Shown in pieces: positions 1-4,358 of a stretch of DNA of 5,565 nucleotides. The stretch comes from Candidatus Latescibacterota bacterium (GTDB taxonomy: Bacteria > JAAXHH01 > JABIQT01). Below the pieces are notes generated by a model. It did no database searches. It was not told where the DNA came from and was given only the letters and a program-made list of their open reading frames with translations. A program made the position numbers and the translations under genes. Each line of letters begins with the position of its first letter. Positions within the stretch are counted from its first letter, which is position 1. The stretch covers positions 1 to 5,565 of the forward strand of contig JABIQT010000571.1 in the NCBI GenBank assembly GCA_018667995.1, in the 5' to 3' direction.

Positions 1-2614
1 GCCGGCGGGCAAGGACACCGATGTCCCACATGGCGCCGCGACTGCTATTCGCGATGCTGTCCAAGGCACCGGATTTCGCAAGATTGTCGAGGGCGTCGCG
101 AGGCATCTTCACCCGCTGATACAGTTCTTCAACCGACTTATAAACCCCGTTCATCCGCTCCCAGACAATTGCTCTGGCCATGTCAGCCGTCACGTTATCA
201 ATGGCGGTCAACGGCTTATTAATGCAGAGTTTATGATCGGGCGTATGCATGAGATCATATCGCGTGAGTGAGCGGTTGATATCCGGAATCTCGATCGGCA
301 CCTCACATCGCCGCGTCTCCTGCTCCAGCGTCATCAGGCTGTACATCCCAGGGCGATGTTGCATCACCGCCGCCATGTAGGCCGCGGGATAAAACCGTTT
401 CATCCAGGCTGACTGATACACTATCCGGGCGAATGCGGCCGCATGGCTACGGCAAAACCCATACCCCACGAATTTAGAGACCTTATCAAATACGCTGTTT
501 GCAATATCCTGGGGGATCCCTCGCTCCATAGCGCCACCGACAAATTTGTCCCTCATGGACTCCATCTCATCGGGATCCCGGTACTTCGACATCAATGCCC
601 TGAAATCATCAGCTTCCGCGAGGGACATACCTGCGAAACGATGCGCGACCTCTAAAACCTGTTCCTGGAACAGGATGATACCATAGGTATCTTTAAGCGC
701 CGGAATGAGGTCGGGATGTTCATATTCGATAGGCTCTGTGCCTTTTCGTCGACGGACGAAAGGATGTACCATACCCCCCTGCAGGGGGCCCGGTCTGAAA
801 AGAGCAATCTCGGCTATCAGGTCATCAAAATTGCGAGGCTGATTGACCGCGAGCAGGTGAATCTGTCCCTGGGACTCTATCTGGAACAGGCCAATCGTGC
901 TGTCGGAACAGATGAGGTCATAGACCTCTTCGTCTTCCAATGAGACGGCATCGACATCGGCGGGATCCTCTTCTGTTTTGGCCACGAGTTCGGCGGCTTC
1001 ACTCAGAGTCGCTAGCATACGCAGCCCCAGCACATCCAGTTTCACCAGCCCCAGAGCTTCCACATCATTCTTGTCGAACTGCACCACCTTGACGCCATTC
1101 GCAGAAACCTGAACAGGCGTAAAATGCCTGAGGGGTTTTCTGGAGAGGACCATACCACCCGCATGCAGTCCGAGGTGTCTTGGAATACCGGCGAGTCCTT
1201 CTACCATCGTGATGAGGAGTTCAAATAGCGGAGACTCCCCGAGAATGGCAGAGAGATGATTGCGGTAGGTACGAACCTCTGACGCACTTCTGGACGGGAT
1301 GGCCGGTGTGAGTTTGTCGATTACATCAAGCGGCCATCCCAATGTCTTTGCCACATCCTTTATGGCCATGCGAAGCTGGTAGGTTATGAGTGTGGCGGTC
1401 ATGGCAGTCTGTTCAATGCCGAATCGCTGTTCAACCCATTCGATAATCTCGTCACGCCGTTCGCTGTCGAAATCAATATCGATATCCGGAGTTCCTTTGC
1501 GGCCGCTGTGTAGAAACCGTTCAAAGAGCAGGTTATGCCGAATAGGATCCACACCGGTTATACCGAGGAGGTACGCCACGATGCTATTGGCTGCCGAACC
1601 CCGTCCGGCGCATCGTATACCACGTTTCCGGGATTCATTGACGACTTCACGAACCACCAGAAAGTATTCCTCGAGGCCAAGCGAGGTTATGACACCGAAT
1701 TCTTTATTGTACTGTACAACTGCTTTGTCCTGCCGATCTGCGGGATAGGTGTTCAGCAAGGCATCTCCGCACAGCTTGTTAAGGTAGGCCCTTGGAGACA
1801 TGCCGTCCGGGAGGATGGCTGCCGGCGGGGTAATGTATTCGGGAACGAGTTCCACGTTGCAGCTTTCCGCGATTCGGATGGTATTAATGAAAGCTTCCGG
1901 ATAGGGAATGAGGGGACGAAGCTGCAATTCATCTTTCAGATAGGCCTCGGCATTGGTCGGGCGTTGCGCGTGCGGCTCGTGGATTTTTATACCCAGCCGA
2001 ATGCAGGTGAGCAGGTCGTACCGGCGATAATCTACGGACTCAGCATATCGCACATCATTGGTCGCCACCACCGGTAGGTCCATCTTTTGAGACAGATGGT
2101 ACAACGCATCGATCATGGCCCGATCTCCATAGGAGACGGTATTGGCCAGCTCCACGTAGAGTTTATGGGGAAAGGCCTTACTCAATCTTTCGAGCCATGA
2201 TCTGGCGGCGCCGATTTTTCCTTCGCTTACGAGTTTTCGAAGCAGACTCTCACGGCCCCCCGACAAGCAGATCAGATCCTGGTGATCGGGGATATTTTCC
2301 AGCAGGATACCCGGTTTTTTTCGGTCTGCCAGGTGAACTTTTGTCAAGAGGTCACAGAGGCAGGCATACCCTTCTTTCGTCTGGGCAAGCAGTACTACAG
2401 GATGATGATCCAGGGTAACTTCCGCGCCGACGATACCGACGATACCTTCCGCTTTGCAAAGTTTGAGGAACCGTACGACCCCGTATACACCGTTTACGTC
2501 GGTCAGGGCAAGATACTTGTCGTTGTTTCTTTTGGCGCTGGTTACGAGATCCTCGGGAGAAGAACCACCTGAGAGGAAGGAGAATGTGCTGCGGACATGT
2601 AAATGGGCGAACAT
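1..2614 (-). CDS. dnaE2: Error-prone DNA polymerase III alpha subunit DnaE2 (3' end cut off by the window)
   Basis: C-family replicative-type polymerase that carries out error-prone translesion synthesis with ImuB. The frame is open for 871 codons from ATG 2614 to the window edge; the family usually has about 1,030-1,080 residues, so roughly 170-200 C-terminal residues are missing. Visible parts in order: PHP domain (about 1-205) starting MFAHLHVRSTFSFLSGG; polymerase core with GRGSAANSIVAYLLGIT (337-353), a DnaE2-type signature; catalytic acidic motif PDIDIDF (376-382; D377 and D379 match E. coli D401 and D403); third aspartate in KLDVLGL (D527, matching D555); FRPGPLQGGMV (606-616); YGFCRSHAAAFA (718-729); and the start of the helix-hairpin-helix region near 824-871. 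The polymerase triad is intact. The PHP metal site is degenerate (R8, TDVNG 38-42, R189), so PHP exonuclease activity is unlikely. The start is chosen because family homology begins at residue 2 and an AGCAGGT site lies 8 bp upstream. It is last in the visible imuB cassette. Confidence 0.94.
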   Translation of the reverse strand, partial: MFAHLHVRSTFSFLSGGSSPEDLVTSAKRNNDKYLALTDVNGVYGVVRFLKLCKAEGIVGIVGAEVTLDHHPVVLLAQTKEGYACLCDLLTKVHLADRKKPGILLENIPDHQDLICLSGGRESLLRKLVSEGKIGAARSWLERLSKAFPHKLYVELANTVSYGDRAMIDALYHLSQKMDLPVVATNDVRYAESVDYRRYDLLTCIRLGIKIHEPHAQRPTNAEAYLKDELQLRPLIPYPEAFINTIRIAESCNVELVPEYITPPAAILPDGMSPRAYLNKLCGDALLNTYPADRQDKAVVQYNKEFGVITSLGLEEYFLVVREVVNESRKRGIRCAGRGSAANSIVAYLLGITGVDPIRHNLLFERFLHSGRKGTPDIDIDFDSERRDEIIEWVEQRFGIEQTAMTATLITYQLRMAIKDVAKTLGWPLDVIDKLTPAIPSRSASEVRTYRNHLSAILGESPLFELLITMVEGLAGIPRHLGLHAGGMVLSRKPLRHFTPVQVSANGVKVVQFDKNDVEALGLVKLDVLGLRMLATLSEAAELVAKTEEDPADVDAVSLEDEEVYDLICSDSTIGLFQIESQGQIHLLAVNQPRNFDDLIAEIALFRPGPLQGGMVHPFVRRRKGTEPIEYEHPDLIPALKDTYGIILFQEQVLEVAHRFAGMSLAEADDFRALMSKYRDPDEMESMRDKFVGGAMERGIPQDIANSVFDKVSKFVGYGFCRSHAAAFARIVYQSAWMKRFYPAAYMAAVMQHRPGMYSLMTLEQETRRCEVPIEIPDINRSLTRYDLMHTPDHKLCINKPLTAIDNVTADMARAIVWERMNGVYKSVEELYQRVKMPRDALDNLAKSGALDSIANSSRGAMWDIGVLARR

Positions 2615-2651: not shown

Positions 2652-2770
2652 GGATTAACCACCGCGACACAGAGAAATCAGGGCAAATTAAGGGCTACAA
2701 AAAAGCACGAAGACACAAAGAGCTTAGGGCAGGTATACACTTGTGGACAGTCTGTGTTACGGGTTAATCC
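2652..2770. repeat. Inverted-repeat-bounded intergenic element of the 'AACCAC..GACACAGAGA' type
   Basis: The ends are perfect 9-bp inverted repeats, GGATTAACC (2652-2660) and GGTTAATCC (2762-2770). Just inside them is a second inverted pair, ACACAG (2667-2672) and CTGTGT (2752-2757). Inside are two direct near-copies, GACACAGAGA (2666-2675) and GACACAAAGA (2712-2721), 46 bp apart. The wording resembles short dispersed intergenic repeats (AACCAC-GAGACACAGAGA and relatives) that I recall from many environmental bacterial genomes. It has no coding capacity and fills most of the gap between the 77-codon gene and dnaE2. The right end overlaps the stop codon of the 77-codon gene. It may be a non-autonomous mobile element (MITE-like) or a transcript hairpin. 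No flanking target duplication is evident, and only one copy is in the window. Confidence 0.55.
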
Positions 2771-2997
2771 CAGATTTTTGAGAGCATCCAATCACCATCG
2801 GTGCAGAAAATCTCGAGCATCCCCTGGTCAGTGATCAGGTGCATATAGAGTCGGCGTTCGTCCTTCAACCACCACTTGCTCTGTACAATCCAGTATTCCA
2901 GCATACGAATCACACGGTATGACATAGAACCGCGTTCGATCCGTGTGGGACGATTTTCCTTTGTCATCACCAGTATGGTCTCTTCTACCACCCTCAT
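2764..2997 (-). CDS. Small DUF6504-like protein between imuB and dnaE2
   Basis: A 77-residue protein without signal peptide or membrane segment, rich in Trp and Arg. Its aromatic and charged spacing (YRVI 27-30, W36, WW 42-43, RRLY 48-51, G59, LEIF 61-64, W70, final WD 76-77) resembles the DUF6504 family, which I recall as a small domain encoded beside Y-family/DnaE2 polymerase genes in Actinobacteria and others. No biochemical function is known to me. ATG 2997 lies 6 bp after the imuB stop, so the two are probably translationally coupled; GGGAAG in the imuB tail could serve as a weak ribosome site. M11 (ATG at 2967) is an alternative start, since the conserved-looking part begins near residue 16. 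The stop TAA lies inside the end of the inverted-repeat element. Position in a mutasome operon suggests an accessory to ImuB or DnaE2; this is inference. The family match is from memory and unconfirmed. Confidence 0.72.
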   Translation of the reverse strand: MRVVEETILVMTKENRPTRIERGSMSYRVIRMLEYWIVQSKWWLKDERRLYMHLITDQGMLEIFCTDGDWMLSKIWD

Positions 2998-3003
2998 GAT
3001 CGA

Positions 3004-4164
3004 TCACTTCCCGTCCTGTACGACCGGCACCAGTTTCCACTCGTCGCCGGGAAAAAAGGGGGTCTCGTGAATAATATGAGGTCTCAACAACTTTCCGGGA
3101 AAACGCCTATCCATACGCGCAATGAGCGCATCACGATCGCCTTTCTTCAGGAATAACGCTTGTTGACTGGGGATCACAGGGACCAGACCGCCAAAGGTGA
3201 GCACCACCGTTTTAACAGACATTCCCGGCACCGCTATTTTTTTCGAGGTCAATGCGGCGAGACGGGATAACACTTCCGGTCTGGCTGTGGGTTCCGTCAG
3301 AGTACGGCTTCTCGAGAGCGAGGCACCATCTTCCATTATCAGTCGAACTTCTAATCGTGTCGGTTTGCTGTCGTTAAACTCTGCTGCTGCTGCCAGAACA
3401 AGCTGTCCGAGAGTTTCCGCAATCTGTTCCGGTTCTGAAATGGGCCAGTCAAAATCTTCCGCGTGTTCTATCTCACGCCATTCATAGTTCGGCACAGTAT
3501 CGTCCCGGTCCGCCGGATTCAGAAAATCATAAAGCCGGCGCCCCGCTTCCCCGAATTGAACCATAAGATGCCGTCTGTGAAGCTGGCAAACACGCCAGAC
3601 CGATCGAAAACCAAATAGCTCCAACCGTTCAATCATGTCTTCATCAAATTGGAGCATATCGAGATCTCCCAGCACGTTAACTCGGGTCGTCTTTAAAAAG
3701 GAGACTCTGTCTCGACCAGATATGGCAAGGACCGTTCCCGGATCACTACGAATAGATGCCAGCATGGCAGTACGGCGTTCAATCGACACACCGACCCGGG
3801 CATGCAATTGCGCGGCAATCCACTCCAGGTCTTTCAATCCAGCCTTTGCCGTTAGAAACCAGGCTCCTTTCCCATTGAGGTTGGGTACAGGCATGATACG
3901 GGGAGTGAGTTTGTAGAGCAGACGCAGAATAGATTCTGTCATAGTGAAATCCATATGGGGCTCCCAGACACAAAACCGGGCTCCCGGGACCAATGTACGT
4001 GCCCTATCTACGGTATCACCGATATTAACTCCCCAATCGTTCTCCGGGGGATTCATGGAGATCACACGATGATTGAATGACACAAAGAGCGGGGACGATG
4101 TCTTCAAATGGCGGGCCATGGACCATGCCGGAAAATTCGATATATAGACACACGCTATATGCAT
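3004..4164 (-). CDS. imuB: ImuB: inactive Y-family polymerase, mutasome clamp adaptor
   Basis: ImuB is a Y-family DNA polymerase paralogue that does not synthesise DNA but links DnaE2 to the beta sliding clamp. The 386-residue product opens MHIACVYISNFPAW, the usual ImuB start where active polymerases have a D-x-D-x-F-x-x-V-E motif; the acidic residues are absent. The second catalytic motif (SxDE in active enzymes) is replaced around LNGKGAWFLT (96-105), so it is predicted inactive. A helix-hairpin-helix-like segment (VNVLGDLDML 162-171) and RFG-like FGEAGRRLYDFL (204-215) follow, then a little-finger domain (about 268-325) and QQALF (334-338), a near match to the beta-clamp motif QLxLF. At 386 residues it is shorter than typical ImuB (about 450-550). 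The frame extends to an ATG at 4224, but that codon lies inside the promoter palindrome, so 4164 is preferred by homology although no good Shine-Dalgarno precedes it. It is first in the cassette; no imuA precedes it. Confidence 0.88.
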   Translation of the reverse strand: MHIACVYISNFPAWSMARHLKTSSPLFVSFNHRVISMNPPENDWGVNIGDTVDRARTLVPGARFCVWEPHMDFTMTESILRLLYKLTPRIMPVPNLNGKGAWFLTAKAGLKDLEWIAAQLHARVGVSIERRTAMLASIRSDPGTVLAISGRDRVSFLKTTRVNVLGDLDMLQFDEDMIERLELFGFRSVWRVCQLHRRHLMVQFGEAGRRLYDFLNPADRDDTVPNYEWREIEHAEDFDWPISEPEQIAETLGQLVLAAAAEFNDSKPTRLEVRLIMEDGASLSRSRTLTEPTARPEVLSRLAALTSKKIAVPGMSVKTVVLTFGGLVPVIPSQQALFLKKGDRDALIARMDRRFPGKLLRPHIIHETPFFPGDEWKLVPVVQDGK

Positions 4165-4210
4165 ACAGATACCGCGCGATAAGAATGGATACCGACGTTC
4201 TCTTTCTACT

Positions 4211-4241
4211 AATACACTAAACATTTGTTTAGTTTTGTCAA
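4211..4241 (-). promoter_or_regulatory. imuB promoter (TTGACA -35, weak -10)
   Basis: On the minus strand a perfect sigma-70-type -35 hexamer TTGACA (4241-4236) is followed after 19 bp by TGTATT (4216-4211), a 4/6 match to TATAAT. The suboptimal spacing and weak -10 make the assignment of the -10 tentative; TATTAG slightly downstream is an alternative. The operator-like palindrome fills the spacer. Transcription would start roughly at 4200-4205, leaving a leader of about 40 nt before ATG 4164 and excluding ATG 4224 from the message. Confidence 0.6.
4216..4233. promoter_or_regulatory. Putative SOS (LexA-type) operator, 18-bp palindrome
   Basis: ACTAAACATTTGTTTAGT has two perfect 8-bp arms (4216-4223 and 4226-4233) around a 2-bp centre. 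It lies between the -35 and -10 of the imuB promoter, the position expected for a repressor that excludes RNA polymerase. imuB/dnaE2 cassettes are LexA-controlled in most bacteria studied, which makes LexA the likeliest binder; this is inference. The sequence does not match CTGTN8ACAG, GAACN4GTTC or GTTCN7GTTC. An extra half-site ACTAA lies at 4208-4212, one 8-bp step from the ACTAA of the left arm. Confidence 0.68.
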
Positions 4242-4320: not shown

Positions 4321-4358
4321 TAAAAAAAGCCGCTTTCGAATATTTATCGAAAGCGGCT
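4321..4358 (-). terminator. Intrinsic terminator after the BNR-repeat gene
   Basis: A perfect 12-bp stem, AGCCGCTTTCGA paired with TCGAAAGCGGCT (4358-4347 with 4339-4328), encloses a 7-nt loop. On the minus strand it runs straight into seven T residues (4328-4322, the first shared with the stem). It ends the BNR-repeat transcript about 80 bp after its stop codon and insulates the imuB promoter from readthrough. The A-rich side is only on the low-coordinate flank, so it is not bidirectional. Confidence 0.93.

Follow-up and report, generated by a model that had tools for sequence, protein, structure and literature searches.

An 18-bp palindrome in the promoter of a probable imuB-dnaE2 translesion operon of a Candidatus Latescibacterota bacterium is, to judge from its sequence and those of related genomes, almost certainly a LexA operator (SOS box) in a lineage-specific form, and is very probably the site at which a dimer of the host LexA represses this operon. 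The palindrome occupies an operator position in the promoter, the host encodes a canonical LexA, and in the order as a whole the element is found again at repair genes, among them recA, uvrA and lexA. At the site, LexA binding, repression and induction by damage are expected to follow the known LexA system: a LexA dimer on CTAAACANNTGTTTAG, between the -35 and -10 hexamers, would block RNA polymerase; upon DNA damage RecA would be loaded on single-stranded DNA and stimulate self-cleavage of LexA at its Ala-Gly site; and the release of LexA would induce the imuB-dnaE2 operon. The presence of a LexA box at error-prone polymerase genes, recA and other repair genes implies that DNA damage probably turns on mutagenic repair in these bacteria.

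A broader proposal is put forward with moderate confidence, namely that Latescibacterota possess a previously unreported LexA specificity (CTAAACA-N2-TGTTTAG), tied to a helix-turn-helix (HTH) that is one residue shorter than that of E. coli LexA and carries the invariant helix STRAAYDHL, and that a second LexA of the sister genus g3 (LexA2), which heads a lexA2-imuA-imuB-dnaE2 cassette, has diverged to ACAGACA-N2-TGTCTGT. The role of LexA is constant while its target sequence differs between bacterial groups, with 17 distinct motifs by 2021 (PMC8565304). A literature search, in which subscription journals were thinly covered, found neither a report of CTAAACA-N2-TGTTTAG nor a LexA study of Latescibacterota. 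The motif adds a LexA target for this candidate phylum and makes its SOS regulon searchable. In addition, LexA1 and LexA2 form a natural paralogue pair, whose palindromes and recognition helices are akin but not identical and on which the evolution of LexA specificity can be tested; if g3 LexA2 has indeed acquired its own palindrome, the splitting of a motif after lexA duplication could be studied within one order.

The imuB promoter

The window analysed is the whole 5,565-nucleotide stretch of contig JABIQT010000571.1. As described in the first-pass annotation, the palindrome ACTAAACATTTGTTTAGT (positions 4216-4233) is 18 bp long and has perfect 8-bp arms; the two letters between them are TT. 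Its consensus core, CTAAACA-N2-TGTTTAG, lies in the minus-strand promoter of imuB, an intervening ORF and dnaE2 (Table 1). Dinucleotide shuffling of the window, repeated 200 times, never produced a match to the palindrome with three or fewer mismatches; when the 300 bp upstream of imuB were shuffled 1000 times, the best chance match had two mismatches, against none in the observed site.

Table 1. Features of the imuB-dnaE2 region, in window coordinates
Feature	Position	Strand	Basis or remark
dnaE2-like error-prone DNA polymerase gene, running off the contig	2-2614	-	PHP, DNA_pol3_alpha and finger domains
77-aa ORF between imuB and dnaE2	2764-2997	-	without Pfam or NCBIfam match
imuB-like gene, 386 aa, Y-family-related	3004-4164	-	Pfam IMS_C; partial similarity to DNA polymerase IV models
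Probable -10 hexamer TGTATT	4211-4216	-	sequence; best -10-like hexamer
Candidate LexA operator (SOS box) CTAAACA-AA-TGTTTAG	4217-4232	-	sequence; recurs at host recA and lhr and at recA, lexA and uvrA of relatives
-35 hexamer TTGACA of the imuB promoter	4236-4241	-	sequence; relatives likewise have TTGAC ahead of the operator in their lexA and most of their recA promoters
Intrinsic terminator of the upstream BNR-repeat gene	4328-4358	-	4358-4328 on the minus strand

Read along the minus strand, TTGACA comes first, then the operator and then TGTATT, so that the operator does lie between the two promoter hexamers. The fit is less exact than first proposed, since the positions of the hexamers set them 19 bp apart, compared with 16-17 bp in the recA and lexA promoters of relatives, and a consensus promoter scan (spacing 16-18 nt) called no imuB promoter. 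The first-pass annotation further suggested that an ACTAA half-site 8 bp away belongs to the operator. The sequence is present at 4208-4212 and reads TTAGT on the promoter strand, at the end of the -10 region. Because of this position, and because no such element follows the recA or lexA operators, it was rejected as a half-site and is probably part of the -10 region. Upstream, the terminator of the BNR-repeat gene insulates the imuB promoter from that gene.

Translation of imuB probably starts from the ATG at 4164 (MHIACVYISNFPAW...). The open frame has an earlier ATG, its first, at 4224, and this one falls within the operator. The gene order, imuB followed by dnaE2 behind one operator, is that of an ImuB-DnaE2 mutagenesis cassette, and no imuA was seen within the window. 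The best NCBIfam model for the dnaE2-like protein is PRK05672 (error-prone DNA polymerase), with a score below its cut-off; the protein is truncated at the contig end. Among the genomes of the order, the search for imuB orthologues whose promoter could be read gave none, and outside the host there was one weak match only.

Recurrence in the host genome and across the order

The host genome (6.06 Mb, about 85% complete) contains a single copy of the perfect core. Allowing one mismatch yields three sites, all in promoters and each at the promoter position: that of imuB-dnaE2, that of recA (C617) and that of an Lhr-type helicase gene (lhr, C200). This compares with 0.5-1.2 sites expected, depending on GC or base composition, and with none in the reversed control; the count by itself is modest, but the locations are not. 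With up to three mismatches allowed, the bare palindrome shows no enrichment over the genome (62 matches versus 185 in the control), and such matches were for this reason never used alone. Matches within coding sequence (e.g. on C237, C44, C1104 and C444) were set aside as chance. The genome search proposed in the first-pass annotation thus succeeded for recA, lhr and imuB, but the expected place at host lexA holds no more than a degraded element, CTATTCAGGCGTTGTG, with mismatches at 5 of 14 positions; its P value is about 0.55 in a free scan and reaches about 0.002 only when the promoter position is fixed. This points either to weak autoregulation of the host LexA or to drift of the host lexA site. 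Checked for the adverse case named beforehand (no LexA in the host, or no palindrome at lexA, recA or other repair genes), the host was found to have both a LexA and the palindrome at recA.

The comparison covered 16 genomes of the order including the host, which are all the genomes of the phylum examined. At recA, the element is found with one or two mismatches between -35 and -10 in 16 of 16 genomes, for example as TTGTTAT-CTAAACATTAGTTTAG-TATAAT in the host and CTTGACA-CTACACAAATGTTTGG-CATATT in genus g3, and in each of the seven genomes tested none of 1000 shuffles matched it. At lexA, CTAACC- variants stand between TTGAC and the -10 box in all 15 relatives, in the layout TTGACnn-CTAACCnnATGTTnnG-TATATT/TACATT/TATAAT; the host promoter holds the weak site only. 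The best lexA sites by shuffling are those of G001 (CTAACCAAATGTTTGG) and G011 (CTAACCACATGTTTTG), with P at most 0.002, and the genus g3 sites taken singly reach free-scan P values of just 0.006-0.10. At uvrA, an upstream element with two or three mismatches is present in all 14 genomes examined, which are those with a near-identical UvrA start and do not include the host; in 11 it directly follows TTGATTT, and in two another site, located further upstream, is the one listed as best.

Further sites were located at nrdR (host C33 and G001 C299), at a Rad52-family gene (G001), at DUF5131 genes (G003, G014 and G005) and, judged by eye, at small ankyrin-like proteins (G001 and G011). Two tandem elements precede a conserved protein of about 100 residues and of no known family, with the sequence MVLxYRGFEGxRVFKW..., in the host (G000:C722:2190-2227, L020) and in G011 (C303:3176-3203, L221); this is possibly a new SOS gene. 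At recA, lexA, imuB and other genes the operator overlaps the promoter, being placed between -35 and -10. A pattern extended to include the -10 box gave 135 matches in the 16 genomes versus 32 in the reversed control. The consensus of 25 chosen sites is CTAAACA-N2-TGTTTAG, with CTAACC- as the left half in lexA promoters; its information content of about 21 bits is an overestimate because the sites were picked by similarity.

An AT-rich inverted repeat arisen by chance, or one with a structural (RNA) role, might be suspected from the AT-rich promoter region and from the lack of genome-wide enrichment at up to three mismatches. Against this stand the failure of all 1000 shuffles of the imuB upstream sequence to reach the palindrome, the same element at the same promoter position of recA in every genome, and the conservation at uvrA and lexA, which together make such an origin so improbable as to be negligible.

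A number of other promoters drew attention. In the host, a two-mismatch site (G000:C448:2308, L021) lies in front of a small membrane protein and, behind it, a lytic transglycosylase domain, a target that might have a cell-wall or division function. In genus g3 a small zinc-ribbon-like protein (CCGRxM...CPxCGxRR) repeatedly follows the operator (L087, L212 and L230), and a BtrH_N-domain protein, a candidate for an unusual SOS target, is regularly found behind TTGAC-operator-TATA promoters (L088, L214 and others). The conserved TAAACANNTGTTTA elements in the dnaA-dnaN intergenic region of genus g3 (e.g. L077, L079 and L089) overlap the DnaA-box-like TTATCCACA and were not counted.

LexA proteins of the order

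A family search identified one canonical LexA gene in the host, which is cut by the contig end and retains the HTH and Ala-Gly region. The intact LexA proteins of relatives score above the NCBIfam lexA equivalog cut-off and carry Peptidase_S24 (PF00717), so that the pairing of a winged HTH (PF01726) with an S24 peptidase that defines LexA is found in the order, the peptidase being seen in relatives and the host copy being truncated. Identities to the query LexA within the order are 69-100%. Canonical LexA was found in every genome; since the host, G001 and G013 each have a single LexA, no second repressor is needed.

The first-pass annotation had offered a lineage-specific LexA motif and a different damage-responsive repressor as explanations, and the former is favoured by the recurrence of the site, which stands at recA and lhr of the host and also marks recA, uvrA and lexA of its relatives. 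The palindrome could belong to a non-canonical LexA of the S24/CI type, such as Bacteroidetes have, or to a DdrO-like protein, with LexA doing something else, an idea that gains some appeal from the similar-looking CTAA-N5-TTAG used by Bacteroidetes repressors at like genes. Here, however, the half-sites are spaced as CTAA-N8-TTAG, with three mismatches to the eight positions of the Bacteroidetes box, every genome of the order has a canonical LexA, and the element sits in the lexA promoters themselves; a separate repressor is therefore unlikely.

The helix of LexA1 is invariant in the order (ISTRAAYDHLRAIEKKG, STRAAYDHL). Inspection of the HTH for divergence, as advised at the outset, revealed that, in an alignment to solved LexA, the turn preceding the recognition helix is one residue shorter than in E. 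coli LexA; the LexA of PDB entry 3k2z has the same shorter turn. LexA proteins outside the order, found by helix patterns, have different helices and different promoters; where the helix is STNGV, the protein's own promoter carries a GAACA-type site (G016, TTGAACATTTGTTCAG; L126, CTGAACAGATGTTCCG). These sequences suggest that LexA helix and motif changed together. The L126 contig, with its STNGV-helix LexA and CTGAACA-type site, is labelled as a Klebsiella pneumoniae MAG, a label that looks wrong.

Twelve of the 16 genomes, all of genus g3, encode in addition LexA2 (helix FRAVQSARQHLEKL), which also scores above the lexA cut-off. Its promoter contains the palindrome ACAGACANNTGTCTGT, i.e. ACAGACA-N2-TGTCTGT, which at up to one mismatch is found in exactly the 12 lexA2 genomes, once each at lexA2, with one extra match in G008, and is absent from the four other genomes of the order. 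In the cassettes of genus g3 (L245 and L246; G002:C2:477700 and G010:C109:45300) lexA2 is followed by an ImuA-like protein (a weak NCBIfam match under its cut-off), an ImuB-like ORF assigned by position and sequence only, and a DnaE2 above its cut-off. By this layout, a LexA1 box heads the mutagenesis genes of the host, and those of the sister genus stand behind a LexA2 palindrome distinct from it. The wide occurrence of LexA2 raises the question whether it, instead of LexA1, reads the CTAAACA-N2-TGTTTAG box. This is very unlikely, as the recA box is present in the host, G001 and G013, in which no LexA2 match was found, and LexA2 has a palindrome of its own, essentially confined to the lexA2 promoter.

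Comparison with known LexA boxes

The statement in the first-pass annotation that the palindrome differs from known LexA motifs holds for the Myxococcus, GAAC-N4-GTTC and Bacteroidetes boxes, none of which it matches. By sequence, the nearest known motifs are the Myxococcus box and GAAC-N4-GTTC with G replaced by A. The Myxococcus xanthus box CTRHAMRYBYGTTCAGS (PMC9705874) shares the length, the outer CT...AG and the AAC-A...T-GTT core. The imuB site differs from it at 2 of 17 positions and the other operators of the order at three or four; its right half has a fixed C (GTTCAG), where the imuB site has T (GTTTAG). The Gram-positive/actinobacterial box (t)CGAAC-N4-GNNCG(a) (PMC9380542), GAAC-N4-GTTC, shares the AAC-N4-GTT core in register, but each half-site has A-T where GAAC...GTTC has its G-C pair, and CT/AG flanks are added; two or three of the eight specified bases differ. 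A GAACA-type site, TTGAACATTTGTTCAG, stands in the promoter of the LexA gene of G016, outside the order.

The non-canonical Bacteroidetes box CTAA-N5-TTAG (PMC8565304) shares the CTAA/TTAG ends and the kinds of target genes. Its spacer, however, is five nucleotides long and its repressor is an S24 protein whose DNA-binding domain is of the CI type, whereas the element described here combines a spacer of eight with a canonical LexA. A precedent for two paralogues with separate palindromes is provided by LexA1 and LexA2 of Leptospira (PMC3789691), where LexA2 is confined to its own promoter, as is suggested for genus g3; the Leptospira motifs, TTTGN5CAAA and TTGTAN10TACAA, are unrelated to those of the present order.
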